The notes below the pieces were generated by a model. That model was not told the origin of the DNA. It did not search any database and was given only the letters and a program-made list of their open reading frames with translations. A stretch of DNA of 64,000 bases from Actinokineospora auranticolor (GTDB lineage Bacteria > Actinomycetota > Actinomycetes > Mycobacteriales > Pseudonocardiaceae). Within the stretch, counting starts at the first letter, position 1; each line of letters opens with the position of its first letter. The position numbers were made by a program, and so were the translations under genes. This document shows positions 28,626 through 55,768 of this stretch, in pieces. The stretch is from the NCBI RefSeq assembly GCF_002934265.1, contig NZ_PTIX01000002.1:1-64000 (forward strand). The letters are read 5' to 3'.

Positions 28626-28838
28626 TCAGCCGGTTCCTCGCGGTGGAGCCAAGCCCTTCTCGTCGGCGACGCGCTCGGCGGTGTCGCGGTCGTCGACGGC
28701 GGCGTTGTGGTCGTGCGGCGCCTCGACGAGGTCGCGGATCGTGCCGACGGCCCGCTTCGCCGCAGCCGCGTTCGGCCTGTCGCGGCGGCAGAACTTCGCC
28801 GTCCAGGCCGTCTGTCCACATGCGCCAGGTTTGTCCAC
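28626..28838 (-). CDS. Possible 70-aa hydrophilic protein beginning in repeat copy A
   Basis: Frame from GTG 28838 to TGA 28626. The middle reads TAKFCRRDRPNAAAAKRAVG and TIRDLVEAPHDHNAAVDDRD with strongly C/G-ending codons, which favours coding. However, the first ~8 codons overlap the paired TGTGGACA motifs, there is no ribosome site, and no family was recognised. It may be a remnant of a longer gene. Confidence 0.3.
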   Translation of the reverse strand: MDKPGACGQTAWTAKFCRRDRPNAAAAKRAVGTIRDLVEAPHDHNAAVDDRDTAERVADEKGLAPPRGTG

Positions 28839-28930
28839 AGGCGGGCCGCGACCTCTTCTGCCCGTCCACCGGCCCGACCTAAGATCAAAATTAGGGGTTC
28901 CCCCATGCCGGGGACCCCTCGCGGGCGTTG
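28811..28930 (-). repeat. Intergenic paired-box element, copy A
   Basis: On the reverse strand: CGCAACGCCCGCGAGGGG near 28930, an inverted repeat GGGGGAACCCCTAAT near 28895, 52 bases of spacer, then TGTGGACAA and TGTGGACAG with starts 19 bp apart (boxes 28832-28839 and 28813-28820). Nearly the same order and sequence as copy D at 51433-51553, including the 52-base spacer. TGTGGACAA equals the complement of the actinobacterial DnaA box. Confidence 0.8.
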
Positions 28931-29043
28931 CGGGAAGCGCGGGTCGCGGGGCCGGAGGCACGAGTGTGCCGGGGCCGGGAGCAGCGACGCGCGGGGACGA
29001 TCGTTGACGGGTGGTGCGGGCCGACTCGGGCTAGCCTGGCCGC

Positions 29044-30345
29044 GTGGCGGGCGTGAGCAAGATCTTCGTGGCGCAGTTGCTCGGTCTGCCGGTCTTCGGT
29101 CCGGACGGCGAGTCCATCGGGCGGATCCGGGACCTGGTGGCGGGCCTGCGCGTGGACGGCGCGCCGCCGCGCGTGCTGGGGATCGTGGTCGAGCTGGCGA
29201 CCCGGCGGCGGATCTTCGTGCCGATGCTGCGGGTCGCGGCGATCGAGCCGAACGCGATCACCCTGGCCACCGGGTCGGTCAACCTGCGGCACTTCCACCA
29301 GCGCCCCAACGAGGTGCTGGTCGTCGGCCAGCTCCTCGACGCCCGCGTGCAGGTCGTCGCCTCTGACGCGCGCGCCGTGGTGGTCGACACCGCCATGGAA
29401 CCGACCCGGACCCGCGACTGGGTGCTCAACCGGGTCGCGATCCGCGAGCGCACCGGCGGCTGGGGCAGGCGCGGCCCGATCCAGGTGCTGACCTGGTCGG
29501 AGATCCGCGCCCCCGGCATCACCGAGCTGACCGGCCAACCCCAGGACGCCCACCAGCTCATCGCCGTCTTCGACACCATGCGCGCCGCCGACGTGGCGAC
29601 CGCCCTGCAGGACCTGCCCCTCAAGCGCCGCTACGAGGTGGCCGACGCGCTCGACGACGAGCGGCTGGCCGACGTCATCGAGGAACTGCCCGAGGACGAC
29701 CAGAAGGAACTCCTCGCCCACCTCGACGAGGAGCGCGCCGCCGACGTGCTGGAGGCGATGGACCCCGACGACGCGGCCGACCTGCTGGCCGAGCTGTCGG
29801 AGATGGACAAGAACCGCCTGCTGGAGCTGATGGAGCCCGAGGAGTCCGAGCCGGTCAAGCGCCTCCTCGAGTACTCCTACGACACCGCGGGCGGTCTGAT
29901 GACCCCCGAGCCGATAGTGCTGACCCCGGACGCCCCGATCGCCGAGGCGCTGGCCCGGGTCCGCAACCCCGACCTGACCCCGGCCCTGGCCAGCATGGTC
30001 TTCGTCTGCCGACCGCCGACCGCCACCCCGACCGGCCGCTACCTGGGCTGCGTGCACATCCAGCGGCTGCTGCGCGAGCCCCCGTTCGACCTGGTCGCGG
30101 GCGCGGTGGACAAGGAGCTGGCCAGCCTGCGCCCGACGGACTCGCTCGTGGCCGTGACCAGGTACTTCGCCACCTACAACCTGGTCTGCGCGCCCGTGGT
30201 GGACGACGAGGACCACCTGCTCGGCGCGATCACCGTCGACGACGTGCTCGACCACCTGCTGCCGGACAACTGGCGCGACCGCGACACCGCCGACGAGACC
30301 TTCGCGGCCATCGAGACGACCGGGGAGGCGAGGCGCCGTGCCTGA
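29044..30345 (+). CDS. MgtE-N/CBS-domain protein without channel domain (Rv1232c type)
   Basis: 433 aa from GTG 29044. N-terminal PRC-barrel-like domain (LLGLPVFGPDGESIGRIRDL), a second similar segment to about residue 150, then an MgtE N-terminal helical superhelix (VADALDDERLADVIEELP, ERAADVLEAMDPDDAADLL) and two CBS domains with YDTAGGLMTPEPI and a final LLGAITVDDVLDHLLPD. The MgtE membrane channel is absent, so it may be a Mg2+/nucleotide-sensing regulator. It overlaps the DUF1003 gene by 8 bp; in M. tuberculosis the pair is Rv1232c-Rv1233c. Confidence 0.85.
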   Translation: MAGVSKIFVAQLLGLPVFGPDGESIGRIRDLVAGLRVDGAPPRVLGIVVELATRRRIFVPMLRVAAIEPNAITLATGSVNLRHFHQRPNEVLVVGQLLDARVQVVASDARAVVVDTAMEPTRTRDWVLNRVAIRERTGGWGRRGPIQVLTWSEIRAPGITELTGQPQDAHQLIAVFDTMRAADVATALQDLPLKRRYEVADALDDERLADVIEELPEDDQKELLAHLDEERAADVLEAMDPDDAADLLAELSEMDKNRLLELMEPEESEPVKRLLEYSYDTAGGLMTPEPIVLTPDAPIAEALARVRNPDLTPALASMVFVCRPPTATPTGRYLGCVHIQRLLREPPFDLVAGAVDKELASLRPTDSLVAVTRYFATYNLVCAPVVDDEDHLLGAITVDDVLDHLLPDNWRDRDTADETFAAIETTGEARRRA

Positions 30346-30871
30346 ACCCACCACCCGCAGGCGGCTCGACCAGCCGCGCAGGCCCCGCGGCCTGCGCTTC
30401 GCCATCGACCCGGACGCCTTCGGCCGGTTCTCCGAGCGGCTGGCCCGGTTCCTGGGCACCGGCAAGTTCCTGTTCTGGCAGACGATGATCGTGGTCGCGT
30501 GGATCACGCTCAACCTCGTCGCGGTGAGCCTGCGCTGGGACCCGTACCCGTTCATCCTGCTCAACCTGGCGTTCTCCACCCAGGCCGCGTACGCGGCGCC
30601 GCTGATCCTGCTGGCGCAGAACCGGCAGGACGACCGCGACCGGGTGTCCCTGGAGGAGGACCGGGCGCGGGCGGCGCAGACCAAGGCCGACACCGAATAC
30701 CTGGCCCGGGAACTGGCCGCGCTGCGATTGGCGGTCGGCGAGGTGGCGACCCGCGACTACTTGCGCGGTGAACTGGACAAACTGCGCGGCGACCTGAAGG
30801 CGAAACGGCCCAAATCGGGTTCGGCGAAATCCCTGCGCGACGACCCGCGCTGGGACGAGGTCACGAGCTGA
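30338..30871 (+). CDS. DUF1003 membrane protein
   Basis: 177 aa. The middle carries the DUF1003 signature: FGRFSERLARFLGTGKFLFW, then WITLNLVAVSLRWDPYPFIL and LNLAFSTQAAYAAPLILLAQ, with NRQDDRDR following. Two membrane helices, then a basic coiled region (AALRLAVGEVATRDYLRGEL). Translationally coupled to the MgtE-N/CBS gene, suggesting one complex in which this protein anchors the sensor to the membrane. Confidence 0.88.
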   Translation: MPEPTTRRRLDQPRRPRGLRFAIDPDAFGRFSERLARFLGTGKFLFWQTMIVVAWITLNLVAVSLRWDPYPFILLNLAFSTQAAYAAPLILLAQNRQDDRDRVSLEEDRARAAQTKADTEYLARELAALRLAVGEVATRDYLRGELDKLRGDLKAKRPKSGSAKSLRDDPRWDEVTS

Positions 30872-30984
30872 ATTCGCGCACCCTGAGTCATTGTCACTTG
30901 TTGTGTCATTCCCGCCATTCCGACCGCCGGTAGCGCTCCCATTCGTGGACGCTCGTCACCCGTAACGGGGGTGGTATGCGCCGA

Positions 30985-31437
30985 TCAGTCCACGAGTTTG
31001 CCGCAGAGGTCGCCGAGGTGGTGCAGCTGGTCGTGGTCGAGCCGCGCCACGAAGTGCCGCACGATGCCCGCCAGGTGCGTCCGGGAGGCGGTGCGCAGCA
31101 CGTCAAGCCCCCGGTCGGTGAGGGTGGCGACGACGCCGCGACCGTCCCCCGCGACCCGCTCACGGGCCACCATCCCGGCCCGCTCCAGGCGGTCGACCAG
31201 GCGGGTGACGCCGGAGCGCGACAACAACACCGCGTCAGCGAGTTCTGCCATTCGCAATTTGCGTTCCGGTGCTTCCGCGAGTTGGACGAGAACGTCGTAC
31301 CCCCCGAGGGAAAGCCGCTGCTCGGCGACCAGTTCGGTCTCCAACGACCGGGTAATCCTGGCGTGGGCGCGCAGAAACGTGCGCCAGGCGTGCAGTTCTT
31401 CTCGGGTGGGCCGGGCGGACTGGTCCGGCAAGGTCAA
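30985..31437 (-). CDS. MarR family transcriptional regulator
   Basis: 150 aa with the winged-helix core LGGYDVLVQLAEAPERKLRM, AELADAVLLSRSGVTRLVDR, LERAGMVARERVAGDGRGVV and ATLTDRGLDVL, flanked by dimerisation helices. Divergent from mrp with 155 bp between starts. Target unknown; could control itself or mrp. Confidence 0.88.
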   Translation of the reverse strand: MTLPDQSARPTREELHAWRTFLRAHARITRSLETELVAEQRLSLGGYDVLVQLAEAPERKLRMAELADAVLLSRSGVTRLVDRLERAGMVARERVAGDGRGVVATLTDRGLDVLRTASRTHLAGIVRHFVARLDHDQLHHLGDLCGKLVD

Positions 31438-31592
31438 GGTTCCTCCTTGGGCCCAAACAGGGGGACAATGCTACGGAACCCGAGTGGCGGACCCAACAGC
31501 ACCCTTACCGCCCTTGACAAATGGGCTGTGCATCGCTGTGGTGAGTGCCATCCACGGCGACCGGGCCGCGTACCCGCCCGTAGCATGGACTC

Positions 31593-32738
31593 GTGACCAC
31601 CACCGAACAGGTTCCCGGCGTCGAGGCCGTCCGCAAGGCGCTCGCGGGCGTGCAGGACCCCGAGATCCACAAGCCGATCACCGACCTCGGCATGGTCAAG
31701 GACATCGCGGTGCACCCGGACGGGCTGGTCGAGGTCGCCGTCTACCTGACGGTCGCGGGCTGCCCGCTGCGGGACAAGATCACCCGGGACGTGACCGCGG
31801 CGGTCGCCGCGCTGCCCGGCGTGCGCACCGTGACGGTGACCCTCGATGTGATGAACGACGAGCAGCGCACCACCCTGCGCAAGACCCTGCGCGGCGACGC
31901 GGAGGAACCGCGCATCCCGTTCGCCGAACCCGGCTCACTCACCCGCGTCTACTGCGTCGCCTCCGGCAAGGGCGGCGTCGGCAAGTCCAGCGTCACGGTC
32001 AACCTGGCGGTGGCCATGGCCGCGCGCGGGGTGAAGGTCGGCATCGTCGACGCGGACATCTACGGCCACTCGATCCCCCGCATGGTCGGCGCGGGCGACA
32101 AGCCGACCAAGGTCGAGAAGATGATCCTCCCGCCGCAGGCCAACGGCGTGAAGGTGATCTCGATCGGCATGTTCACCCCCGGCAACACCCCGGTCGTCTG
32201 GCGCGGCCCGATGCTGCACCGCGCGCTCCAGCAGTTCCTGGCGGACGTGTTCTGGGGCGACCTGGACGTCCTGCTGCTCGACCTGCCCCCGGGCACCGGC
32301 GACATCGCGATCTCGGTGGCCCAGCTGATCCCGAACGCGGAGATCCTGGTGGTGACCACGCCCCAGCAGGCCGCCGCCGAGGTCGCCGAGCGCGCGGGCG
32401 CCATCGCCCTGCAGACCCGCCAGCGGGTGGCGGGCGTCATCGAGAACATGTCGTGGCTGGAACTCCCGGACGGCAGCCGCATGGACGTCTTCGGCGCGGG
32501 CGGCGGCCAAGCGGTCGCGGAGTCCCTGTCGCGGGCGGTCGGCTCGGAGGTGCCGCTGCTGGGCCAGGTACCCCTCGACCCCCGCCTCCGCGAAGGCGGC
32601 GACGCGGGCGAGCCCCTGGTCAAGTCCCAGCCGGACACGGCGGCGGCCAAGGTCTTGACCGACATCGCGGGCAAGCTCTCCGTCCGCGCCCGCGGCTTGG
32701 CGGGTCGCATGCTGTCGGTCTCCCCGGCGGGCCGCTGA
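31593..32738 (+). CDS. mrp: Mrp/NBP35-type Fe-S cluster carrier ATPase
   Basis: 381 aa from GTG 31593. N-terminal MIP18/DUF59 domain (VQDPEIHKPITDLGMVKDI) followed by the P-loop ATPase: deviant Walker A VASGKGGVGKSSVTVNLAVA, DADIYGHSIPRM, LDLPPGTGDIAISV and VVTTPQQAAAEVAERAG. Family members bind and transfer 4Fe-4S clusters; the CxxC often seen at the C terminus is not evident here (VIENMSWLELPDG in its place), as in several actinobacterial Mrp. Conserved near htrA/tatB in actinobacteria. Confidence 0.9.
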   Translation: MTTTEQVPGVEAVRKALAGVQDPEIHKPITDLGMVKDIAVHPDGLVEVAVYLTVAGCPLRDKITRDVTAAVAALPGVRTVTVTLDVMNDEQRTTLRKTLRGDAEEPRIPFAEPGSLTRVYCVASGKGGVGKSSVTVNLAVAMAARGVKVGIVDADIYGHSIPRMVGAGDKPTKVEKMILPPQANGVKVISIGMFTPGNTPVVWRGPMLHRALQQFLADVFWGDLDVLLLDLPPGTGDIAISVAQLIPNAEILVVTTPQQAAAEVAERAGAIALQTRQRVAGVIENMSWLELPDGSRMDVFGAGGGQAVAESLSRAVGSEVPLLGQVPLDPRLREGGDAGEPLVKSQPDTAAAKVLTDIAGKLSVRARGLAGRMLSVSPAGR

Positions 32739-32858
32739 CCCGATTCTCCGGCGCGCGAGACCGGGCCGAGCACCGGAATTGCTACAGCTGTCGACAAACC
32801 GCATGGCCGATCCACTCGCGGCGACGCGTGGTCGCGACACGTGACGCGCACGTTTGAC

Positions 32859-32876
32859 TGTTGCGCGTACGCAACA
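32859..32876. promoter_or_regulatory. Candidate operator of the HTH/PIN toxin-antitoxin module
   Basis: Perfect 7-bp inverted repeat TGTTGCG-CGTA-CGCAACA about 80 bp upstream of the antitoxin start. A further half-site TGTTGCA lies 18 bp beyond it. Typical position for TA autoregulation. Confidence 0.5.
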
Positions 32877-32957
32877 TCAGTGGTGTCATGAACGGGTGTT
32901 GCAGATACAGGTGCACACACGGTCAGTTATAGGTGTGAGCACTTTGGCGAGGGAGTG

Positions 32958-33404: not shown

Positions 33405-33470
33405 TCCGATGACTGTCCGCAGGCCAGGCCACACGGCCAAGCGCATCGGGCCGATGGATAGTCTCCCAGG

Positions 33471-34267: not shown

Positions 34268-34273
34268 GGAAGA

Positions 34274-34681: not shown

Positions 34682-34724
34682 CCTCGCTACCTCCGAACTA
34701 CGCCTCTGCCATCAGAGTAGCCGG

Positions 34725-39939: not shown

Positions 39940-40587
39940 GTGGGCGGAGAACCAACCGCGGGCGCGGACCTGCGCGACTACGTCGAGGGCTTCCTCGACG
40001 AGGACGACGTGCTCGTCGCCGCGCGCACCCTCGGCCAGCAGCTGGGCTGCGCCCCGGTGAGTCCCGGCTGCGGTGCCGCCCTGCGTTTCCTGGCCGCCGC
40101 GCAGCGCGCGAAGGCCGTGGTGGAGATCGGTACGGGAGTCGGGGTCAGCGGCCTGTACCTGCTCCGCGGCATGGCCGCCGACGGTGTGCTGACCTCGATC
40201 GACGTGGAGCCCGAGGCCCAAGCCGCGGCCAAGCGCACGTTCCGCCAGGCGGGCATCGCCCCCGGCCGCACCCGGTTGATCATGGGCCGCGCGGGCGACG
40301 TGCTGCCCAGGCTGAGCGACGGCGGCTACGACCTGCTCTTCGTGGACGCGACCAAGACCGAGTACCCGACCTACCACGAGCACGGCGTCCGCCTGCTGCG
40401 CCCGGGCGGGGTGCTGGCGTTCTACAACGTGCTGTGGCAGGGCAACGTCGCCAACCCCACCAAGCGCGACGCGGAGACCCTGGCCCTGCGCGAGGTGGTC
40501 CGGACCATCCAGCAGGACGACCGGCTGGTCCCGCTGCTGCTCCCCCTCGACGAGGGGCTCCTGCTGGCCGCCAAGGTCACCACCTGA
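39940..40587 (+). CDS. SAM-dependent O-methyltransferase (Rv1220c type)
   Basis: 215 aa from GTG 39940. Class I methyltransferase of the CCoAOMT-like family: SAM motif [20 protein letters not shown], acidic loop [38 protein letters not shown] with the metal-binding Asp, and [17 protein letters not shown]. Divergent from sigE, the same arrangement as Rv1220c/sigE in M. tuberculosis. Substrate unknown. Confidence 0.9.
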
Positions 40588-40633
40588 CGGTCCCGCGGGC
40601 GGGCCCGACGGTCGGCGCTGCCAGGATCGACCG

Positions 40634-41143
40634 GTGGATGATCTCCGTTATGTGCGGTTCCAGGCCGCGGTCGGTACCCCGCGTGGCCGGTTTCCCGGCG
40701 TGTTCGGCCTGGTCAACGGCCTCGCGCGGGAAGGCAGGTTGACGGCGGAGCAGGAAGCGTTCCGCCGCGCCAACAACGACTGGTTCGAGGCGAACTTCAC
40801 CAACCCCAGCACCGTCGACCCGACGGTCTACGACCAGGACCTCCACCCCGGCGCGACCGCGTGGTTCGAGTCTTCGGCCGCGCACCTGGTCGAACGGGTC
40901 ACGGGCTACCTCTCGATCCTCGACGCGCACGGGGTCGGCTGGGTGCGGCTGGAATCGGCGGACCCGGGCCGGGTCATCTACGAGGACACGGAGCAGGTCG
41001 TCGTGGTCGCCCACCCGCACAACCACCTTCAAGATCACCTCGACCGCCCCCACGCGGAGGCCCTCCCACCCGGGGGATCCCCCTCTTCGAGACTATCGCC
41101 GCAGGTCGGCGGGGTGGAAGAGGTGTCTGAGAGCTGTGGATGA
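40634..41143 (+). CDS. Hypothetical protein; C terminus runs into repeat copy B
   Basis: 169 aa from GTG 40634. The body (MDDLRYVRFQAAVGTPRGRF, FRRANNDWFEANFTNPSTVD, YDQDLHPGATAWFESSAAHL) looks like a real globular protein common in actinobacteria. From about residue 137 (GGSPSSRLSPQVGGVEEVSE) the reading enters the intergenic repeat element, so the last ~30 residues are probably repeat-derived rather than ancestral. Function unknown. Confidence 0.65.
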   Translation: MDDLRYVRFQAAVGTPRGRFPGVFGLVNGLAREGRLTAEQEAFRRANNDWFEANFTNPSTVDPTVYDQDLHPGATAWFESSAAHLVERVTGYLSILDAHGVGWVRLESADPGRVIYEDTEQVVVVAHPHNHLQDHLDRPHAEALPPGGSPSSRLSPQVGGVEEVSESCG

Positions 41144-41172
41144 GATGCGGGCATGTGGATGAGTTGTCCACA
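41068..41172 (+). repeat. Intergenic paired-box element, copy B
   Basis: Inverted repeat CCGGGGGATCCCCC around 41070-41083, a 49-50 base spacer containing GACTATCGCCGCAGGTC and GGAAGAGGT, then TGTGGATGA at 41135 and TGTGGATGA at 41154 (pitch 19). An inverted TTGTCCACA, a perfect actinobacterial DnaA box, follows at 41164-41172. Located between convergent genes, overlapping the end of the 169-aa ORF. Confidence 0.8.
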
Positions 41173-41280
41173 CAGGCGGAGAGTGTGGGCGGGTCGCCCG
41201 GGCAGGCGACAGCGGCGCACGGTCGCGTGAGGCCAAGGGGTGGGCGGGTGGCGGGGTCGGAGGCTCGGGTGATGGCCGGG

Positions 41281-42507
41281 CTATGAAGCGCGGGTGCCCT
41301 TGCCGAGGACGACGATCCCGCTGGTGCTCACCGTGTACTGCTCCCGGTCCGCCGCCAGGTCCACGCCGATCCGGACGCCGTCGTCGACGATGACGTTCTT
41401 GTCCAGGATCGCGCGGCGGACCACCGCGCCCTTGCCCACGCGCGCGCCCGGCAGCAGGACGCTCCCCTCGACCACCGCGCCCGTCTCGATCACCACGTCG
41501 GCGCTGATCACCGAGTCGGTGACCGTGGCGCCGGAGATGATCGAGCCGGGGCCGACGATCGACTCCGTGGCCGTGCCCGAGTTGACGAACTTCGCCGGGG
41601 GCAGCGGGGGCATCGCCGTGCGGATGGGCCATTCCTGGTTGTACAGGTTGAACACCGGGTGCACGGAGACCAGGTCCATGTGCGCGTCGTAGTACGCGTC
41701 CAGGGTTCCCACGTCGCGCCAGTAGCCGCGGTCCCGTTCGGTTTCGCCGGGTACGAGGTTGTCCGCGAAGTCGTAGACGTGTGCCGTGCCCTGGTCGACC
41801 AGCATAGGGATGATGTCGCCGCCCATGTCGTGCAGGGAGTCGCGGTCGGCGGCGTCGGCGCGCAGTGCGTCGAGCAGGGCGGTGGTGGAGAAGATGTAGT
41901 TGCCCATCGACGCGAAGGTGACGTCCGGGTCGTCGGGCACCGACGGCGGGTCGTCCGGCTTCTCGAGGAACCGGGTGATGCGGCCGGAGGCGTCGGAGTC
42001 GATGCAGCCGAAGGCGGTGGCCTCGCGGCGCGGGACGCGGATCCCGGCGACGGTCACGCCCGCGCCGGAGTCGACGTGCTGCTCCAGCATCTGGCTGGGG
42101 TCCATCCGGTACACGTGGTCGGCGCCGAAGACCGCGATGTGGTCGGGGCGCTCGTCGTAGACCAGGTTCAGGGATTGGTAGATGGCGTCGGCCGATCCGG
42201 TGTACCAACGCGGACCTAACCGCTGCTGCGCGGGGACCGGGGTCACGTACTGGCCGAGCACGTTCGACAGCCGCCAGGTCGTGGAGATGTGCCGGTCGAG
42301 CGAGTGCGACTTGTACTGCGTCAGCACGCACAGCTTGTGGAAGCCCGCGTTGACCAGGTTGGACAGCACGAAGTCGACCAGCCGGTAGTTGCCCGCGAAG
42401 GGGACGGCCGGTTTGGCGCGGTCGGCGGTCAGGGGCCAGAGGCGTTTTCCCTCGCCACCCGCCAACACGATCCCGAGTACGCGCGGCTTCCCCTTCACAG
42501 TCCTCAT
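41281..42507 (-). CDS. glgC: Glucose-1-phosphate adenylyltransferase
   Basis: 408 aa. Nucleotidyltransferase domain with [39 protein letters not shown], and later [29 protein letters not shown]; the C-terminal left-handed beta-helix ends in [19 protein letters not shown]. Makes ADP-glucose from glucose-1-P and ATP. Divergent from glgA with about 120 bp between starts, as in other actinobacteria. Confidence 0.95.
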
Positions 42508-43863: not shown

Positions 43864-44337
43864 GTGCCTCGGCGTAACGGTGTTCGGATTCGCTTCACGC
43901 GCTACTCGGTGGCGTCGTTGGTGGCGACCGGCATCAGCCAGTTGGTGCTCTTCGCCCTGTACGGCTGGGGTGGGATGGGCGCGACCGCGGCGAGCGCGGT
44001 GGCGTTCGCGGTGGGGGCGGTCCCGCACTTCGTGATGATCCGCTGGTGGGCGTGGGGGCAGCGGGGGCTGCCGAGGCTGACCAGGCAGGTCGTGGGCTAC
44101 ATCGTGGTGACGGTGCTGGGCGGCCTGGTGTCGGTGCTGCTGACGACGCTGGCGGATTGGCTGGTGGCGCCGCTGCTGGCCGACCGCGCGGCCCGCACCC
44201 TGGTCCTGAACGTGACGTACGTGCTCAGCGGCCTGCCGGTGTTCGTGGCCAAGTACGCCTTCCTGGACCGCGTCTTCGCCACCGACGAGGACGCCGACCA
44301 CGCCGTGGTCCTGCGGCAGGGCGAACTCACGGGCTGA
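43864..44337 (+). CDS. GtrA-like membrane protein
   Basis: 157 aa from GTG 43864. Four membrane helices with the GtrA pattern: FTRYSVASLVATGISQLVLF, SAVAFAVGAVPHFVMIRWWA and a final VTYVLSGLPVFVAKYAFLDR. GtrA proteins assist transfer of lipid-linked sugars across the membrane. Eighty bases after glgA. Its end overlaps the convergent small membrane gene by 11 bp. Confidence 0.82.
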   Translation: MPRRNGVRIRFTRYSVASLVATGISQLVLFALYGWGGMGATAASAVAFAVGAVPHFVMIRWWAWGQRGLPRLTRQVVGYIVVTVLGGLVSVLLTTLADWLVAPLLADRAARTLVLNVTYVLSGLPVFVAKYAFLDRVFATDEDADHAVVLRQGELTG

Positions 44338-44524
44338 ACCCCTGGAAAGCGAAAACGATCGGCGGAACAGCGCTCAGCACGGCAACTATCGCGATGATAG
44401 TCCCGGGGATTCGTTTCGTGTCGCTATTGGCGAGTCGGTGCACGGTGAATCCGATGAGCACCAGAACGGCGATAACTACGGCCCCCACCACCAAAACAGC
44501 AAGACTGTCGAAATGCAGCAACAA
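44327..44524 (-). CDS. 65-aa membrane protein
   Basis: MLLHFDSLAVLVVGAVVIAV, then LIGFTVHRLANSDTKRIPGT and IIAIVAVLSAVPPIVFAFQG: two membrane helices separated by a short basic loop. It resembles small actinobacterial two-helix proteins of unknown role. It overlaps the tail of the GtrA gene on the other strand. The following 44525-44739 has no gene that can be supported. Confidence 0.55.
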   Translation of the reverse strand: MLLHFDSLAVLVVGAVVIAVLVLIGFTVHRLANSDTKRIPGTIIAIVAVLSAVPPIVFAFQGFSP

Positions 44525-44739
44525 GGATATCCTCTGACTTTTTCGTCGATTTCAGCGCAGCAACACGACGCGCCGTTGGTCGCGTGACCAGCCGAAGCCT
44601 ACGACCACCGGAGCGCACGCGAAAGGGCTACCCCCTGTCAGGGTGACACGACCCCACACCGTCACCCGATCGCGAAATCAGCTTGAACCCGATGAATTCA
44701 GCAGCCGCAGCGGCCTGAGCTGACCATTTGCCGGACCGG

Positions 44740-45456
44740 TCACGCCAGCCGGTCGAACAGCGAATTGCCAGCTTCGAGAGAATCGCCCACGGTGTCATGT
44801 CGAAGACCTTCGATCAGTGCATCCACGTCTTGCAAACCCGCTCGCGCAAGCAATTTCTTCTCGTTCGTCACCCACTCGCCCCGGGACGCGAGAATCGCGT
44901 GGGCGGTACACATGGCGGCGACGGCCAGGGCACCCGCCGCCTCGGTGACGCCCCCTCGGCGGGCGTAGTCCAGGGTCGCCCGGGCTCTACCGCGCCAGAA
45001 GGGCGGTGCGGACTCGCGGAGGGGCTCCGGGTAGTCGATCCGCGGGAGGGTGCCGCGCAGCGGCCGGTTGAGCGCCAGTTCGGCCACGACCAGGTAGCTG
45101 GGGATACCCGCCAGGTGGAACATCAGGGGCTCCCAGTGGAACCTCCCCCGCGACGCCTCCGCCACCTCGTGCTCCACCACCGCCAGGTCCCGGTAGTGGA
45201 CGTCCACGGGCACGCCGTCGATCCGCAGCCAGGCACCGCCGTTGAACACGCCGCCGCCCCAGGCGCCGAGGTCGGAGACCTCTCCCTCCCAGCCGACCGC
45301 GCGGAGGTGGGCCGGGTCGAAACCGGAGCGGTAGTAGACGCCCAGATCCCAGTCGCTGTCCGGCCCGTGGGTGCCCCTCGCGCGGGAGCCGCCCAGGGAT
45401 ACCGCCACTACGCCCGGCAGGTCTGCCAAACGGTCAACTACGGGGTCCAGCCACAT
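44740..45456 (-). CDS. Nucleotidyltransferase (MNT/aminoglycoside-adenylyltransferase type)
   Basis: 238 aa from ATG 45456 (a second ATG at 45465). The NTP_transf_2 motif SLGGSRARGTHGPDSDWDLG is intact, with the two metal-binding Asp in DSDWD, followed by a DUF4037-like C-terminal helical part (GALAVAAMCTAHAILASRGE). Substrate could be a small molecule or protein. Its start overlaps the end of pepA by about 20 bp, so they are co-transcribed. Confidence 0.78.
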   Translation of the reverse strand: MWLDPVVDRLADLPGVVAVSLGGSRARGTHGPDSDWDLGVYYRSGFDPAHLRAVGWEGEVSDLGAWGGGVFNGGAWLRIDGVPVDVHYRDLAVVEHEVAEASRGRFHWEPLMFHLAGIPSYLVVAELALNRPLRGTLPRIDYPEPLRESAPPFWRGRARATLDYARRGGVTEAAGALAVAAMCTAHAILASRGEWVTNEKKLLARAGLQDVDALIEGLRHDTVGDSLEAGNSLFDRLA

Positions 45457-46939
45457 AAGAGGCAACGTATTCGACCAAGGTGCGGGCGGCGAAGCCTGAG
45501 GCCCCTGGTACGACGTCGTCGTACGTGCGGTCGGCGCGGGCCGGGCCTGCGATGTCCAGGTGGGCCCACGGCAGGTCGCCGACGAACTCCCGCAGGAACA
45601 GCGCGGCCGTGATCGCTCCCGGGCCGGGCGGGCACTGCCGCACGTCCGCGATGTCGCTGGCCACCTCGGCCGCGTACTGGTCCAGCAGCGGCATCCGCCA
45701 CCAGGACTCGCCGACGGAGGCGCCCGCGTCGGCCAACCGGGACGCCACCTCGTCGTCGTTGGCGAAGAGGCCGCCGATGCGGACGCCGAGCGAGACCTTC
45801 ATGGCGCCGGTCAGCGTCGCCGCGTCCACCAGGATGTCCGCGCCCAGGTCACGCGCGTAGACCAGACCGTCCGCGAGGACCATGCGGCCTTCCGCGTCGG
45901 TGTTGAGGACCTCGGTTGTTCTACCGCCGTAGTGGCGCACGATGTCGCCCGGGCGGTAGGCGGAGCCGGACACGTGGTTCTCCGCGCACGGCACCAACGC
46001 CGTCACGCGGACCGGTAGCGCCAACCGCGCGATGGCCAGGGTGGCGGCGATAACCGCGGCCCCACCGGCCATGTCGGTGCGCATGAGGTGCATGCCCTCG
46101 TTGGGCTTGATCGAGATGCCGCCGGTGTCGAAGGTGATGCCCTTGCCGACGAGGGCGATGTGCGGTCCCTCGGCGTCCGGCGGTGACCACGACAGGTGCA
46201 GCAGCCGCGGGGGTCGGGAGGAGCCGCCGCCGACCGCGAGCAGGCCGCCGAACCCGTGGTCGGCCAGCCACCGCTCGTCGCGGACGTGGGTGTCCAGGCC
46301 CGCGATCCGCCCGGCCGCCTTGGCCGCCGTGCGGGCCAGCCAGGCCGGGTCCTTGACGTTGGACGGGGTGTTGGCCAGGTCGCGGGCGAACGCCGTGGCC
46401 AGGTCCAGGGTGCTCGACCGGCGCACCGCCGCCGCGATCCGGTCGCGACGGTCCTTATCGGACACCACGAGCGCGGCGGAGCGCAGGCGCGGCTCGGGCT
46501 CCTCCTCGGTCACCCGGTAGCGGTAGCCGCCCAGCCGCAGGCCGCGGGCGAGCAGGGCGGCTTCGTCGGCGGTGGTGTCGTCGGGCAGGTGGACGGCCGC
46601 GGTCGCGGACGCCTCCGGGTCGGCGGCCAGACCGGCGTCGATCGCGCGAGCGAGTGCCGCGCCCGCGGTGCGCCAGTGCTCGGGCTTGCCCGCGCCGATG
46701 CCGACGACCCAGGCGGTGGCCGAGCCGAGCGGGCCGGGTAGCACCTCGCCCGCCTTGCCGGTGAGCCCGACGGCGTCGACCCAGTCGGGAGTGAGGTCGT
46801 CGCCGCCGGGACCGATGAGCGCCGGTCCGGCGCCGTCCGACGTGCGGGTCAGCACGATGGACGCCGCGCCCGCGCGGGCCCTGGCGGGCACGTCCACGTC
46901 GGGCAGCGTCGTCGGCAGGGTCGGCACCGGCGTGGACAA
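45434..46939 (-). CDS. pepA: Leucyl aminopeptidase (M17)
   Basis: 501 aa. C-terminal catalytic domain with all metal-site motifs: LVGKGITFDTGGISIKPNEG, MRTDMAGGAAV and the family signature NTDAEGRMVLADGL. The N-terminal domain is regulatory. Removes N-terminal residues from peptides in the cytosol. Follows the DUF3117 gene after 40 bp on the same strand. Confidence 0.94.
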   Translation of the reverse strand: MSTPVPTLPTTLPDVDVPARARAGAASIVLTRTSDGAGPALIGPGGDDLTPDWVDAVGLTGKAGEVLPGPLGSATAWVVGIGAGKPEHWRTAGAALARAIDAGLAADPEASATAAVHLPDDTTADEAALLARGLRLGGYRYRVTEEEPEPRLRSAALVVSDKDRRDRIAAAVRRSSTLDLATAFARDLANTPSNVKDPAWLARTAAKAAGRIAGLDTHVRDERWLADHGFGGLLAVGGGSSRPPRLLHLSWSPPDAEGPHIALVGKGITFDTGGISIKPNEGMHLMRTDMAGGAAVIAATLAIARLALPVRVTALVPCAENHVSGSAYRPGDIVRHYGGRTTEVLNTDAEGRMVLADGLVYARDLGADILVDAATLTGAMKVSLGVRIGGLFANDDEVASRLADAGASVGESWWRMPLLDQYAAEVASDIADVRQCPPGPGAITAALFLREFVGDLPWAHLDIAGPARADRTYDDVVPGASGFAARTLVEYVASYVAGPRS

Positions 46940-48946: not shown

Positions 48947-49003
48947 CCCGCTATTCAAGATCACCCCCGGCCGCCCGGCGAACGGACCCCACCCGCCCGG
49001 GGG

Positions 49004-49116
49004 CAGGCCCTTGATTCGACCCTATCGCCGCAGTTCAGGGCTTCGGAAGCGGTTCGAGGAACCTGTGGACAGTGTGCTGGTATGTGGATAGGTCGACCAG
49101 GACCGGGTTATCCACA
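49004..49116 (+). repeat. Intergenic paired-box element, copy C
   Basis: After CCCGGGGGCAGGCCC (about 48997-49011) come 52 bases containing GACCCTATCGCCGCAGTTC and GGAAGCGGTT, then TGTGGACAG at 49064 and TGTGGATAG at 49083 (pitch 19), and an inverted perfect DnaA box TTATCCACA at 49108-49116. Spacer words ATCGCCGCAG and GAAGCGGTT are shared with copies B and D. Between convergent genes. Confidence 0.8.
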
Positions 49117-49342
49117 GGCTTGATCATCTTCGCCGGGAACCGTCGGTGCCCGCCGGTAGAATGGACACCGGGGGCCGGAGGTGTGACCAGACCAGCCCGC
49201 GCGGCATCCACCTAGGCCGGAGGTGCTGGAAGCGGCCGAGCGGGCCAGCGCGTCTTGTGCCCCGTGGACACGCGAACCGCACCCCCAGGGGCGCGGCGGG
49301 GGTGTGCCGTGGCCAGTGCGGCGAGGGCGGCGCGCGCTCGGG
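49117..49342. other. No gene seen downstream of tagA
   Basis: GC-rich stretch between repeat copy C and the end of tagA. GGCCGGAGGTG occurs twice (about 49173 and 49214). No frame with a ribosome site or recognisable protein was found on either strand. Confidence 0.4.
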
Positions 49343-49891
49343 TCAGGCGGCGCGCCAGCAGGTGGCGATGTGGTCGTCGACCATGCCCGTGGCCTGCATC
49401 AGGGCGTAGCAGGTCGTGGGGCCGACGAAGGCGAAGCCGCGGCGTTTGAGTTCTTTGGCCATGGCCTTGGACTCGGGGGTCACGGCGGGGACGTCGGCCA
49501 TCGTCCGCGGGCGGGGGGTGGGGTCGGCGGGGGCGAACGTCCACAGGAGTTCGTCCAGCGGGCGGTCCAGTTCGGCCACCGCGCGGGCGTTGCGGATGGT
49601 GGCGTTGATCTTGGCGCGGTTGCGGACGATGCCCGCGTCGGCCATCAGGCGTTCGACGTCTTGGTCGTCGAACAACGCGATCTTCTCGGGGATGAAGCCC
49701 GCGAACGCCGACCGGAACGACTCGCGCTTGCGGAGGATGGTGATCCAGGACAGTCCGGACTGGAACGCCTCGAGGCTGACGCGTTCGAACAGTTCGTTCT
49801 GCCCGTGCAGCGGAACGCCCCACTCCTCGTCGTGGTAGCGGATGTACTCGGGGGTGCTGTCGCCCCAGGCGCAGCGGGGGCGGTCGGTCAC
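49343..49891 (-). CDS. tagA: 3-methyladenine DNA glycosylase I
   Basis: 182 aa. Starts MTDRPRCAWGDSTPEYIRYH followed by DEEWGVPLHGQNELFERVSL, the TagA hallmark. Zinc-snap residues are in place: Cys and His near the N terminus and DDHIATCW at the C terminus. Removes 3-methyladenine from alkylated DNA. It overlaps the upstream SRPBCC gene by 4 bp. Confidence 0.94.
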   Translation of the reverse strand: MTDRPRCAWGDSTPEYIRYHDEEWGVPLHGQNELFERVSLEAFQSGLSWITILRKRESFRSAFAGFIPEKIALFDDQDVERLMADAGIVRNRAKINATIRNARAVAELDRPLDELLWTFAPADPTPRPRTMADVPAVTPESKAMAKELKRRGFAFVGPTTCYALMQATGMVDDHIATCWRAA

Positions 49892-50639: not shown

Positions 50640-50733
50640 CGGCAGATGGTGTCATGCCCCACCCGGTCGGCGCACCGCCCGCGGTGGGGAAAAACGGTTG
50701 CCGGTGGCGGCGGGTTGACCAGAATTCACCGGC

Positions 50734-51210: not shown

Positions 51211-51274
51211 ACCGCGTTCCCGCGCCAACGCGCGTCCCGGCGTCGAGGGACACGCCCGCCCCGCGTCCGCGCAC

Positions 51275-51420
51275 AGCCGGACCGCTGCACTGCCGCACCA
51301 CCGCGCTGCCGGGCTGCCGGACTGCCGGACTGCCGGACCGTCGCGCTGCCGGACCACCGCACCGCTGCACTGCCTCACCGTCGGGCTGCCGGGCTGCCGG
51401 GCTGCCGGGCTGCCGGGCAG
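51275..51420. repeat. Irregular 9-bp GC minisatellite (GCTGCCGGG/ACTGCCGGA)
   Basis: CTGCCGGGC, CTGCCGGAC and CGCTGCCG-type units recur many times with 9-bp pitch, ending in at least four perfect GGGCTGCCG copies (about 51385-51420). It directly precedes repeat copy D. Non-coding: all frames give repetitive Ala/Gly/Pro or Cys strings. Whole gap 51211-51596 holds this repeat and copy D only. Confidence 0.8.
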
Positions 51421-51432
51421 GCTCGCCCCTGT

Positions 51433-51554
51433 CGCAGCGCCCGCGAGGGGTCCTCCGCAATAGGGGAACCCCTAATTTCAATTCTATCGAGGTCTGACCT
51501 GCGGTTTGAAGCGGTTGACGCCGTCCTGTGGACAACTCGGGCGCATGTGGATGG
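51433..51554 (+). repeat. Intergenic paired-box element, copy D
   Basis: CGCAGCGCCCGCGAGGGG (51433-51450), inverted repeat TAGGGGAACCCCTA (about 51461-51474), a 52-base spacer with ATTCTATCGAGG and GAAGCGGTT, then TGTGGACAA at 51527 and TGTGGATGG at 51546 (pitch 19). Best match to copy A over its whole length of about 120 bp. Between convergent GNAT and gpgS genes. Confidence 0.85.
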
Positions 51555-51596
51555 CGACCCAGCAGGCAAGCTCAAAGAGCGCGGTCAGGAGCGGGA

Positions 51597-52499
51597 TCAG
51601 CGCTGGACCACCGACATCGGGGGACGGTCCTCGGTCAGGATCTCGGTGCGGTCCGGCAGCCACTCGCCGCCCACCTGGATGAACTGGGTCAGTTCGCCCG
51701 GCGGGGTGGGGATGCCGCAGCGGTCCAGGGCGGTGCCGAGGATCTGCCTCGCCATCACGCCCAGTTGCAGCAGCGAGCGGTTGCGGTGCTTGCGCACACC
51801 CAGGTTGACCTGCGCCAACCCGGCCAGGCCGTAGCGGGAGTGGGCGTCGAGGAGCAGGCCGATCTCCACCCCGTAGCCGGGGGCGAAGGGCACCGACGTG
51901 AGGAACTCGCGGGTGCCCGCGTACTCACCGCCCAGGGGTTGGATGACGCCGGAGAGTTCGGGGCGCAGCGCCGAGATGACCGGGCGGGCCAGCAGTTCGG
52001 TGACCCGGCCGCCGCCGGTGCCGATCTCCTCGGACTCCAGGCGCAGCGGGCGGCGGTAGAAGCCCTTGACCAGGTGCACGCCGCTCACGGTCAGCAGTGG
52101 TCCGAGCAGTGACGGCACGAAGGTCGGGTCGGGGTCCACCAGGTCGGAGTCGAGGAACACGACCAGGTCGCCGGTGGTCGCGGCGAGTGAACGCCAGAGG
52201 ACCTCGCCCTTGCCGGGGCGCGGCGGGATGTCGGGCAGCACGTCGTCGCGGTGCACGACCCGGGCGCCCGCGGCGGCGGCCAGGTCGACGGTGCGGTCGG
52301 TGGACCCGGAGTCGACCACCACCAGCTCGTCGACCAGCGTCCCCACCAGCGGCCGGACCGAGGCGACGACCGCGCCGACCGTGCGCTCCTCGTCGAGGGC
52401 GGGCAGCACCACGCTCACCCGGCGGGTGCCCTTGGCCAGCACCAGTTGCGAGACCGTCCACTCCGGACTCTGCCAGGTGCTGCGGTCCAGCGCGGTCAC
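51597..52499 (-). CDS. gpgS: Glucosyl-3-phosphoglycerate synthase (GT81)
   Basis: 300 aa from GTG 52499, overlapping the folP2 stop by 4 bp. RVSVVLPALDEERTVGAVVA, VDELVVVDSGSTDRTVDLAA, GEVLWRSLAATTGDLVVFLD with the metal-binding SD motif FLDSDLVDP, and PFAPGYGVEIGLLLDAHSRY. Transfers glucose from a nucleotide sugar to 3-phosphoglycerate, the first step to glucosylglycerate or methylglucose lipopolysaccharide. Gene pair with folP2 as in mycobacteria. Confidence 0.92.
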   Translation of the reverse strand: MTALDRSTWQSPEWTVSQLVLAKGTRRVSVVLPALDEERTVGAVVASVRPLVGTLVDELVVVDSGSTDRTVDLAAAAGARVVHRDDVLPDIPPRPGKGEVLWRSLAATTGDLVVFLDSDLVDPDPTFVPSLLGPLLTVSGVHLVKGFYRRPLRLESEEIGTGGGRVTELLARPVISALRPELSGVIQPLGGEYAGTREFLTSVPFAPGYGVEIGLLLDAHSRYGLAGLAQVNLGVRKHRNRSLLQLGVMARQILGTALDRCGIPTPPGELTQFIQVGGEWLPDRTEILTEDRPPMSVVQR

Positions 52500-53383
52500 A
52501 CCAGCGCCCGCAGCACCCGCGCGGGCGGGCGGGTGCCCGCGATGCTCGCCACCATGTCCACCACCTGCCGGGTGCGGCCGACCTCGTGCGCGCGGAACAC
52601 CTTCGCCCCCGCCCACGCCGAGACCGCCGTCGCGGCGAGCGTCCCGTCGACCCGGCCGTCGAGCCCGGCGTCCAGGGTCTCGCCGACGAAGTCCTTGTTG
52701 GACAGCGCGATCAGCACCGGCCAACCGGTCGCGACCAGCTCGTCGAGCCTGCGCAGCAGTTCCAGGCCGTGCCAGGTGTTCTTGCCGAAGTCGTGCGTCG
52801 GGTCGATCAGCACGCCCTCGCGCGGCACGCCCAGCTCGACCATCCGCTCGGCGCGGGCGACCAGCTCGGCGACGACCTGGCCGACGACGTCGGTGTAGCG
52901 GACCCGGTGCGGGTCGGTGCGCGGCGCGGCGCCGCCGGTGTGCGAGCAGACGATGCCGACGCCGAACTCGGCGGCCACCTCGGCCAGCCGCGGGTCGGCG
53001 CCCGCCCACGTGTCGTTGATCAGGTCGGCGCCCTCGGCGCACACCGCGCGCCCGACCTCGTGCCGCCAGGTGTCGACGCTGATCACCAGGTGGGGGTGGC
53101 GCTCGCGGACGGCGGCGACGAACGGCACCACCCGCCGCGCCTCCTCGGCGGCGTCCACGGTCTCGCCGTGCGACCCGGCCCGCACCCCGCCGATGTCGAC
53201 GATGTCGGCGCCCTCGGCCACCGCCCGGTCGACGGCGGCCAGCGCGGGCGCCTCGTCGAAGGTGGTGCCGCGGTCGTAGAAGGAGTCCCTGGTCCGGTTG
53301 ACGATCGCCATCACCAGCGCCCGGTCCTGCGGCACGTCGCGTACACCGAACCTGAGTGTGGTCACGGGTCCCGATGGTGCCAT
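52496..53383 (-). CDS. folP2: Dihydropteroate synthase-like protein FolP2
   Basis: 295 aa TIM barrel; a GTG at 53365 is an alternative start. The pterin loop reads MAIVNRTRDSFYDRGTTFDE in place of the NVTPDSFSDG of true DHPS, a FolP2 hallmark. GADIVDIGGVRAGSHG, ISVDTWRHEVGRAV, LINDTWAGAD and LIALSNKDFVGETLD (retaining the Lys) follow. M. tuberculosis FolP2, also beside gpgS, lacks DHPS activity, so a non-folate role is likely. Confidence 0.9.
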   Translation of the reverse strand: MAPSGPVTTLRFGVRDVPQDRALVMAIVNRTRDSFYDRGTTFDEAPALAAVDRAVAEGADIVDIGGVRAGSHGETVDAAEEARRVVPFVAAVRERHPHLVISVDTWRHEVGRAVCAEGADLINDTWAGADPRLAEVAAEFGVGIVCSHTGGAAPRTDPHRVRYTDVVGQVVAELVARAERMVELGVPREGVLIDPTHDFGKNTWHGLELLRRLDELVATGWPVLIALSNKDFVGETLDAGLDGRVDGTLAATAVSAWAGAKVFRAHEVGRTRQVVDMVASIAGTRPPARVLRALV

Positions 53384-53460
53384 GCGTGAGCGGCGTCTCT
53401 GCCGCGCGGTAGCCGGGTAGCGCCGTGGCTACAGTGGTGAGGACCTAGGAGGCCTCCTCG

Positions 53461-54132
53461 ATGTTGTACCGCACGCTGCGCGCCGTGCTCTCGTTCCTGG
53501 CCAGGCTCTACCTGCGCCCCAAGGTCGAGGGCGCCGAGCGGGTGCCCGCCACCGGACCGGTCATCCTGGCGATCAACCACCTGGCGGTGATCGACAGCTT
53601 CGTCGTGCCGATGATGGTGTCCCGCAAGGTCGCGTTCCTGGCCAAGGCCGAGTACTTCGCGGGCGGCTCCCCGCGCAAGGCGCTGGTGCGGACCTTCTTC
53701 CGGGCGACGGGGGCGATTCCCGTCGACCGGGACAACAGCCGCGCGGCGCTGGCGTCGTTGGACGTGGCGGGCAAGGTCCTGGAGGACGGCGACGCGTTCG
53801 CCATCCACCCGGAGGGCACGCGGTCGCTGGACGGGAAGCTGCACCGGGGGCGGACGGGTGTGGCGCAGCTGGCGTTGGAGCACAACGCGCTGGTGGTGCC
53901 GGTGGCGGTGATCGGGACGGACAAGGTGCAGCCGGCGGGGGCGAAGTTCCCCAAGCCCCACCGCATCACGATCCGCTTCGGTGACCCCCTGGACTTCAGC
54001 CGGTACGACGGGCTGGCCAACTCGCTCCCCATCCGCCGGGCGGTGACGGACGAGATCATGTACGCGATCCTGGAGCTGAGCGGCCAGGAATACGTCGACT
54101 CGTACCACAAGCGCCCCGGCGAAGCCGCCTGA
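53461..54132 (+). CDS. 1-acyl-glycerol-3-phosphate acyltransferase (PlsC family)
   Basis: 223 aa. N-terminal helix, then the HX4D catalytic motif in AINHLAVIDSFVVPMMVS, ATGAIPVDRDNSRAALASLD, and the glycerol-phosphate motif FAIHPEGTRSLDGKLHRGRT with the VPVAVIGT block. Makes phosphatidic acid or acylates a related lipid. Good ribosome site (AGGAGG) ahead of ATG 53461. Divergent from folP2. Confidence 0.9.
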   Translation: MLYRTLRAVLSFLARLYLRPKVEGAERVPATGPVILAINHLAVIDSFVVPMMVSRKVAFLAKAEYFAGGSPRKALVRTFFRATGAIPVDRDNSRAALASLDVAGKVLEDGDAFAIHPEGTRSLDGKLHRGRTGVAQLALEHNALVVPVAVIGTDKVQPAGAKFPKPHRITIRFGDPLDFSRYDGLANSLPIRRAVTDEIMYAILELSGQEYVDSYHKRPGEAA

Positions 54133-54327
54133 CTTTCTCGCTCGATTTATTTAGGGAAATCACTAGAATCCAGTGGTTGCCCATTTGGGTCACTCTGTCC
54201 TGTTTCATCCGGGTTAACTCCACGAACAGCCACGACCACCCTTTCAGCGGAGTGCGAGTCGCACACGCCTTGCCTAACGTCGTACGGGCTACGGGAAACT
54301 CAAACCAACAAGGGGAAGAGTTAAACA

Positions 54328-54633
54328 ATGCCTATCGTGAAGTTTCGCGCCGTGACCTCCGCGCTGGCGATCGCGGCACTCTCCGGAAGCCTGGCGCTGG
54401 TGGCGGAAGCGCCCGCCTCGGCGGATGTCCACGTCTTGTCGTGCCGCTACGTGCTCGCCCAGTCCCTGACCCTGTGGAACGCGCCGTCGGGCGGCGCGAA
54501 TGTGGGCGCCTACCACGCGGGTGACACATTCCAGGAATCGGGCATCGAGGGCAGCTACCGATTCCGCATCAACCTGGGCACCGGCGCCACCGTCTGGGTG
54601 ACGGCGGACCCGGCCTATTCGCGCCCCTGCTAA
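54328..54633 (+). CDS. Small secreted SH3-like protein
   Basis: 101 aa with a Sec signal peptide (RAVTSALAIAALSGSLALVA, cleavage near EAPASA-DV). The mature ~65 residues read LSCRYVLAQSLTLWNAPSGG, YHAGDTFQESG and GATVWVTADPAYSRPC, a bacterial SH3-type barrel with two Cys that may form a disulphide. Ribosome site AAGGGGAAGAG upstream. Extracellular; partner unknown. Confidence 0.7.
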   Translation: MPIVKFRAVTSALAIAALSGSLALVAEAPASADVHVLSCRYVLAQSLTLWNAPSGGANVGAYHAGDTFQESGIEGSYRFRINLGTGATVWVTADPAYSRPC

Positions 54634-54685
54634 TACCGGCGAAAGCTCAACCGGTTATCGCTGGCACCGATTACCCGACCGTTGA

Positions 54686-55522
54686 CTAGAGACGTGTCGC
54701 GGTGCGGACGAGGTCGGCGACGGCTTTGGACCGGCTGTGCGGTGGCCAGGCGATAACGGTCGTGACGGCCGGTGCGTCCGGCACCGGCACCGTCGCGTGG
54801 TCACGCAGGTGGGCTTTGAGGGACTCGGGAACGATCGCGCAAGCCCGGCCGAGTGCGATCAGCTGGAACAGTTGGGTGTGGTCGCGCACCTGCGGGCCGG
54901 GTCCGTCCGGATAGCTCCCGTCACGTCGAGGCCAACGCGGCAGGGGCAGGTCTGTCAGGGTGGCGACCTCGGCTATCGACAGGTGAGGTCGACCAGCCAA
55001 GGGATGCCCCGCTGGCAGGACCACGACCTGCCGTTCGGTGCACAGGTCCTCGGTGTCGAGCCCGGCCGTCGTGTCGAAGGGCCGCTGGAGCAGGGCGACG
55101 TCGGCACGCCCGTCGCGCAGCAGCCTTTCCTGCTCGCCGGGCCCGCACAGCACCACCTCGACAGCCACCGCGCCGGGCTCCGCGGCGTAGGCGTCCAGCA
55201 GCTTCGACAGCAGTTCGCGGGAAGCCCCGGCTTTCGTCGCCAGCACCACACCGGGCTTTTCGGCAGCCGCGCGGCGGGTGCGGCGCTCGGCGGCCTCAAC
55301 CGCGTCGAGCGCGGCCCGGGCCTCCCACAGGAGCACCGACCCGGCCTCGGTCAGGGCGACCGCGCGGGCGGTGCGGTGCAACAGGACCACACCGAGCCGC
55401 CGTTCGAGTTGCTGGATCGCCCGCGACAACGGCGGTTGCGCCATGGTGAGCCGCTGCGCCGCCCGCCCGAAGTGCAGTTCCTCCGCGACGGCGACGAAGT
55501 ACCGCAACTCCCGCGTCTCCAC
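54686..55522 (-). CDS. LysR family transcriptional regulator
   Basis: 278 aa from GTG 55522, giving the standard start METRELRYFVAVAEELHFGR; the HTH continues AAQRLTMAQPPLSRAIQQLE, RRLGVVLLHRTARAVALTEA. The C-terminal effector domain includes LTDLPLPRWPRRDGSYPDG. The target is unclear: no divergent metabolic gene is adjacent; the upstream gap holds the copy E repeat. Confidence 0.9.
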   Translation of the reverse strand: METRELRYFVAVAEELHFGRAAQRLTMAQPPLSRAIQQLERRLGVVLLHRTARAVALTEAGSVLLWEARAALDAVEAAERRTRRAAAEKPGVVLATKAGASRELLSKLLDAYAAEPGAVAVEVVLCGPGEQERLLRDGRADVALLQRPFDTTAGLDTEDLCTERQVVVLPAGHPLAGRPHLSIAEVATLTDLPLPRWPRRDGSYPDGPGPQVRDHTQLFQLIALGRACAIVPESLKAHLRDHATVPVPDAPAVTTVIAWPPHSRSKAVADLVRTATRL

Positions 55523-55683
55523 CGCAGCATCGTATCCAGCGTGCACAGACGGTCGCGCTGTTGACCGGTGCGAGCAAAGGAAACGAGTTCACCAGCAGCC
55601 ACCCGAACACCTCAGGCCGACCCGCTGCCTTTCCTTTTCAAACCCCGCCCCGCCCAAGCACAGCCCCCACCCTTCCCTGGGGG

Positions 55684-55722
55684 GACAGCCCTGCTCCACT
55701 CTAGTTGGGGAGCAGGGCTGTC
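55684..55722. terminator. Strong hairpin ahead of repeat copy E
   Basis: GACAGCCCTGCTCC (55684-55697) pairs perfectly with GGAGCAGGGCTGTC (55709-55722) around an 11-base loop. It occupies the place taken by the shorter G/C inverted repeat in copies A, B and D. It could end the CHAD transcript coming from the right. Confidence 0.7.
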
Positions 55723-55768
55723 GGCGGGAGGCGACGGATCTGTGGACAGGTCTGGGGCATGTGGATAA
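55684..55768 (+). repeat. Intergenic paired-box element, copy E
   Basis: The hairpin above, 18 bases, then TGTGGACAG at 55741 and a perfect DnaA-type box TGTGGATAA at 55760 (pitch 19). The spacer is shorter than in the other copies. Lies between the end of the CHAD gene and the start of the LysR gene, both on the reverse strand. Confidence 0.75.

Follow-up and report, generated by a model that had tools for sequence, protein, structure and literature searches.

Paired DnaA-type boxes of fixed pitch as a candidate promoter module at recA and in dispersed non-coding copies of Actinokineospora genomes

The stretch of DNA analysed here, referred to as the window, comprises 64,000 nt (positions 1 to 64,000 of contig NZ_PTIX01000002.1) of the Actinokineospora auranticolor genome (GCF_002934265.1; G000 in our set, 8.43 Mb in 61 contigs, with the window at C2:1-64000). 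It contains five pairs of the heptamer TGTGGAY, the box starts of which are exactly 19 bp apart in all five copies, as the first-pass annotation of this DNA had claimed. Results of our analysis suggest that these pairs are parts of a sigma70-type promoter module in which a DnaA-box protein, most likely DnaA, would occupy the paired boxes, and which occurs both at host genes and as amplified, inserted copies; we assign to this reading as a whole a probability slightly below one half (about 0.47). The predicted layout of the module, YYRTCCACA-N10-YYRTCCACAG-N35-40-TANNNT, is read in the strand opposite to that in which the boxes had previously been written. Its third fixed element, overlooked by the earlier annotation, is TANNNT, which lies 37-40 bp beyond the second box, on the opposite strand, in all five window copies. 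The relevant features are as follows.

28814..28839, + strand: copy 1, box pair, GTCCACA-N12-GTCCACA in promoter orientation, pitch 19
28880..28885, + strand: copy 1, -10-like TAAGAT, 40 bp past box 2, followed by the inverted repeat 28893-28919
41135..41160, - strand: copy 2, box pair, pitch 19, promoter directed to lower coordinates
41090..41095, - strand: copy 2, -10-like TAGTCT, 39 bp past box 2
49064..49089, - strand: copy 3, box pair, pitch 19
49019..49024, - strand: copy 3, -10-like TAGGGT, 39 bp past box 2
51527..51552, - strand: copy 4, box pair, pitch 19
51481..51486, - strand: copy 4, -10-like TAGAAT, 40 bp past box 2; inverted repeat at 51446-51473
55741..55766, - strand: copy 5, box pair, pitch 19, B1 subfamily
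55698..55703, - strand: copy 5, -10-like TAGAGT, 37 bp past box 2

The coordinates given previously agree with these, except for the reverse copy at 28.8 kb, where they were one base too low (its boxes occupy 28814-28820 and 28833-28839). The words GCGCA or GGGCA, described as frequent directly before the second box, are present there in four of the five copies, but the 49.0-kb copy has GGTA. An inverted repeat or hairpin had been ascribed to every copy; arms of at least 10 nt could be found in three of them (28893-28919, 51446-51473, and 55684-55722), but the 41.1- and 49.0-kb copies contain merely 6-nt repeats or palindromes. In copy 5, the perfect 14-bp inverted repeat 55684-55722 encloses the -10-like hexamer.

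The proposal that the spacing itself is under constraint holds for the entire genome, which contains 79 exact TGTGGAY-N12-TGTGGAY pairs (38 forward and 41 reverse), as compared to one for the reversed-letter control. Pitches 20-24 together account for 10 pairs, a mean of two per pitch, so that pitch 19 is about 40 times as frequent as the average neighbouring pitch and the five window copies are not a coincidence of spacing. In a wider scan with TGTGGA-N1-30-TGTGGA, 144 places were found, and 19 was the commonest pitch among the matches listed (about 100). The intergenic location is also borne out, since the centre of the pair falls within a gene predicted by our home-made caller in one of the 79 copies. 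Pitch-19 pairs are present in all 15 congeners searched, their number ranging from 6 (G003) to 316 (G015); 16 genomes from other families of the same order contain 82 pitch-19 pairs and 41 pairs of pitches 20-24 (8 per pitch).

The alignment on the complementary strand of 78 own-genome copies (one of the 79, close to the end of its stretch, was dropped) revealed a third, downstream signal besides the two boxes. TANNNT starts 35-40 bp past box 2 in 55 of the 78 copies, in 29/30 copies sampled from the 316 of G015, in 29/30 sampled from the 109 of G016, which represents another genus, and in 18 of 27 pitch-20 copies of the congener G012; 14 control windows of equal width gave 0-2 occurrences each. 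In the same 27 G012 copies, TTGAC occurs within 40 bp past box 2 in 16 cases, 15 of them at 14-18 bp; three control windows gave 0, 0, and 1 cases. The boxes occupy a fixed place relative to a promoter-like sequence in samples from four genomes, which is evidence of sequence only. TANNNT is correctly placed for six of the 29 TCCACA boxes of the window: the proximal box of each pair, and the single box of a further repeat (class C, described below). A hexamer at a fixed distance that is confined in the window to these sites points to a promoter module, of which the box pair is probably the upstream half.

Pairs of this kind are located at the starts of several host genes, which we refer to as class A: recA and the genes of a RecQ-type helicase, an SSB paralogue, Tex, a DHDPS-family protein (dapA), a DPPIV-like protein, and a DUF4192 protein (recA was recognised by its own sequence and the others were named from Pfam). 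At the RecQ-like, DHDPS, DPPIV-like, and DUF4192 genes the start codon lies 45-51 bp past box 2, a few bases beyond the -10 position, while in the case of recA a leader separates the module from the gene. An exact, correctly placed TANNNT is present at the recA, DHDPS, and DPPIV-like genes. The region upstream of recA contains, in addition, what we take to be a LexA-box-type palindrome and a motif similar to that of PafBC. The recA pair is present in 12 of the 16 Actinokineospora genomes, the own one included (11 at pitch 19 and one, that of G012, at pitch 20), and the other four have a single box. Among nine genomes of other families, the recA region has a pitch-19 pair in two (G025 and G028, the latter with a T preceding TCCACA in the first box), one box in six, and none in one.

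The actinobacterial DnaA-box consensus is YYRTCCACA. In the own genome, the three bases preceding TCCACA fit YYR in 77 of the distal and 72 of the proximal boxes (79 each), and they are the ideal TTG or TTA in 52 distal and 25 proximal ones. The resemblance to DnaA boxes noticed by the first-pass annotation is supported by the identity of the 9-mer to TTGTCCACA, a DnaA box of Streptomyces coelicolor and Mycobacterium tuberculosis (PMC4285127). A search with PF08299 gave a single match in every one of 41 genomes, which presumably represents DnaA, and a private reader with a DnaA-type domain was rejected on this ground. If the promoter reading is correct, DnaA is the likeliest, putative binder of the boxes, with odds a little better than even.

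Class B comprises the copies inserted between genes. Of all 79 own-genome pairs, according to the home-made caller, 32 are between convergent genes and 7 between genes both in the written direction, the neighbour on the -10 side is directed away from the element in 17 and a further 10, and 13 were uncallable on one side. Many of them have, immediately past the -10, a hairpin-like block, of which several sub-families could be distinguished by eye; the B1 block, recognised by a simple filter in 49 of 106 copies from two genomes, is nearly identical in G016. In G015, tandem arrangements are frequent, with a distance of about 120-150 bp from one copy to the next. The surroundings of three window copies were compared with the orthologous junctions of congeners.

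40582..41287: 706 bp between conserved convergent genes, with an open reading frame (ORF) and copy 2
48949..49349: 401 bp between convergent genes, with copy 3 and the class C repeat
51211..51614: convergent junction of about 404 bp, with copy 4

Fourteen congeners cover the first of these regions; nine of them have 6-53 bp in its place, and in the remaining five the aligned blocks are 124-658 bp apart. The equivalent of the second measures 0-43 bp in 10 of 15 congeners, contains other inserts of 149-746 bp in four, and is rearranged in one. The flanks of the third are collinear in 10 congeners, of which five have 7-52 bp there and the remaining five have aligned blocks 0.6-7.6 kb apart. The 55.7-kb site is rearranged in the congeners compared, and the 28.8-kb site is outside nearly all of their stretches that were compared. 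At three window junctions the DNA that carries the element is lineage-specific, and these near-empty junctions back the "mobile non-coding element" that the first-pass annotation had offered as an option. The inserts are of 400-700 bp, two of them hold more than one feature, and clean ends, a clear target duplication, or a terminal repeat were not seen at the junctions; an ORF is present in the 706-bp insert besides copy 2, so that inserts do not in every case correspond to a single element. We read class B as a predicted amplifying, promoter-bearing, non-coding element, although loss of the intervening DNA in other species is a possible alternative to insertion.

In the mechanism that we propose, a DnaA-box-binding protein would bind to both boxes at their fixed pitch, about 50-70 bp ahead of the start site, and would thereby activate or gate RNA polymerase. 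Class A copies would serve host genes, recA and those of the RecQ-type helicase, the SSB paralogue, and Tex among them, and the promoter class may link transcription to replication or DNA damage. Class B copies would have been amplified as small non-coding insertions between convergent genes, often with the hairpin-like block past the -10, and their promoters would transcribe a short RNA toward the 3' end of the neighbouring gene. If this is correct, a genome-wide promoter class that includes recA is tied to the replication-initiator box in a group of rare actinomycetes, and the species series, with 6-316 copies and two pitches, would be a natural test of how a spacing code evolves in trans.

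Several observations weigh against this interpretation. Exact TANNNT is absent at 35-40 bp in 23 of the 78 own copies, including those at the tex, ssb, recQ-like, and DUF4192 genes, which have looser -10-like words instead, and TTGAC occurs in just 2 of the 78. In a further set of 50 orthologous promoters (seven genes, in 5-8 congeners each out of eight searched), an exact pair of pitch 15-24 is present in 12, one box in 23, and none, within the stretch read, in 15, so the class A pairs are kept only in part; the pitches of the 12 pairs are 19 in seven, 20 in two (recQ and ssb, both of G012), and 16, 17, and 21 in one each. In congeners of low copy number, the excess of pitch 19 is small: G014 has 9 such pairs and 35 of pitches 20-24, and G003 has 6 and 11, respectively. 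Among 197 genomes sampled across the class, 40 have a pitch-19 pair and 153 have a pair at one of the pitches 20-24; there is no preference for pitch 19 in this sample, and a class-wide feature was rejected. As regards the binder, the proximal box is CCATCCACA in 21 of 79 copies, and a change of pitch inside one genus would be surprising if the reader were the conserved DnaA. The RNA hairpin is without covariation support: compensatory changes in the alignment of 48 B1 copies from two genera were not worth claiming on either strand. In addition, none of 12 element loci gave an Rfam match above the gathering score (a single sub-threshold match had E 0.32), and an RNA family was rejected on the basis of these two results.

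The change of pitch was found in G012, which contains 65 pitch-19 pairs and 135 matches for pitches 20-24, with pitch 20 in 29 of 34 among the matches listed. Its pairs at recA, recQ, and ssb have pitch 20 and the one at dapA has pitch 19, these four being the only class A pairs readable in this genome. Such a shift, common to unrelated promoters and dispersed copies, suggests that a trans-acting factor reads the spacing. This lends some support to an explanation in which the promoter module is the same but its reader is a dedicated, faster-evolving regulator other than DnaA, with the TCCACA core attained by convergence. It would fit the lineage-specific base adjoining the second written box (A for the most part in G000, T in G015, and C in G016) and the pair located just downstream of dnaA, the pitch of which is 20 and not 19 in G000, G002, G006, and G015. 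We nevertheless consider such a regulator possible but on the unlikely side, as the 9-mer is identical to a known actinobacterial DnaA box, the pitch-19 recA pair recurs in other families, and G012 itself retains pitch 19 at dapA and in its 65 pairs; candidate proteins were sought by means of PF08299 alone. A step further would be a fast co-evolving site and reader, in which the shift from 19 to 20 in G012 was followed by the recA, recQ, and ssb promoters together with the mobile insertions. This appears unlikely to us, but, if true, selfish promoter copies would ride on, and might compete for, an activator of replication and repair.

Two other explanations dispense with a promoter. Repeats of repetitive extragenic palindrome (REP) or miniature inverted-repeat transposable element (MITE) type are short, dispersed, lineage-specific, intergenic, and often tandem, and the elements described here share all of these features. 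Their boxes could bind a transposition protein and only incidentally resemble a promoter. The insertion polymorphism at three junctions, the tandem copies of G015, the inverted pairs of class C, and the pair that precedes a DDE transposase gene (locus L019) are all compatible with this. It is made quite improbable by the promoter-like layout and by the recurrence of the pair at recA in different species and families, as well as in further orthologous promoters; moreover, no transposase partner was identified and no clear target duplication or terminal repeat was seen. The sites for DnaA titration, or of datA or DARS type, that were proposed by the first-pass annotation would agree with the box sequence, and 79 dispersed pairs could bind much DnaA. 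datA and DARS are unique loci with clusters of DnaA boxes, which are likewise non-coding, whereas here there are 79 dispersed, promoter-like copies of two boxes each. The fixed distance to the -10-like hexamer and the placement at gene starts, including recA, disfavour titration, and a range of 6 to 316 copies among congeners is hard to reconcile with such a device, which leaves it, in our opinion, very improbable.

The preferred reading, that of a DnaA-box promoter module, is related to two known types of actinobacterial or bacterial promoters. The RecA-NDp motif of PafBC is TTGTCRGTG-N8-TAN3T, and a loose form of it was recognised by eye at recA and class C, where a GTCGGT-like word and TAN3T accompany a TCCACA box; the motif is absent from the position profile of the 79-pair family as a whole. 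PafBC and RecA-NDp represent DNA-damage promoters of actinobacteria (PMC6789036). DnaA acts as a transcription factor at DnaA-box promoters, such as those of E. coli nrdAB and uvrB, and in B. subtilis, according to a review (PMC8203912). Such promoters share with the module the box sequence, the location of boxes upstream of promoters, and the link to replication and repair genes, but differ from it in that here one pitch is rigid, the distance to the -10 is nearly so, and the sites number dozens to hundreds, many of them in non-coding insertions. No report of this paired-box layout was found in the open-access literature searched.

Box pairs of this or similar layout were also sought elsewhere. 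Sequences of 365 kb from 54 of 80 named loci contained merely three box pairs of pitch 9-30; two of them, both of L338 from Actinophytocola algeriensis CECT 8960, have pitch 19 and a correctly spaced TAGACT. Of 16 single YYRTCCACAG boxes in the named loci, five are followed by TANNNT at 35-40 bp; twelve other windows gave two occurrences in one and none elsewhere. The exact B1 core had no match in the named genome collection, which may omit the record of the own genome. Carriage by phages or plasmids was rejected for B1, which had no match in viral contigs, plasmids, and phages; matches to a looser pair pattern are present in 22 viral contigs. In a distant genus (g38, family f25), the genomes G049, G073, and G091 contain 25, 8, and 16 pairs at pitches 20-24, many of them 20 and 21, which is perhaps a parallel system with a different pitch. 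Three boxes at pitch 21 are located at G000:C6:173051-173099, and likewise in G006 and G015. At loci L019 and L096, box pairs are upstream of ORFs resembling DDE-type transposases (assigned by Pfam in L019 and by resemblance in L096).

The class C family consists of repeats of about 85 bp with one box, GTCGGTG-N8-TAGAAT-like words, and a G-run. In addition to the window copy, 23 other places in the own genome were found among the matches listed, some of them in inverted pairs or in tandem at 137/149 bp.

49107..49184, + strand: class C repeat, in the direction opposite to copy 3, with the box at 49110-49116, GTCGGTG-N8-TAGAAT (-10 at 49157-49162), and then ACCGGGGGCCGGAGG
G000:C2:139499-140000, C21:45000-45519, C14:109957-110268, and C20:65994-66192: further places of class C

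The junction orthologous to 48949-49349 contains in G006 and G015 (L183 and L185) palindromes of GAGAGCAGTGCTCTC type, which represent another intergenic repeat. A separate segment of the window, 44280-45460, comprises 1.18 kb between conserved blocks that are about 13 bp apart in G006, and is unmatched in the other own-genome sequence compared.

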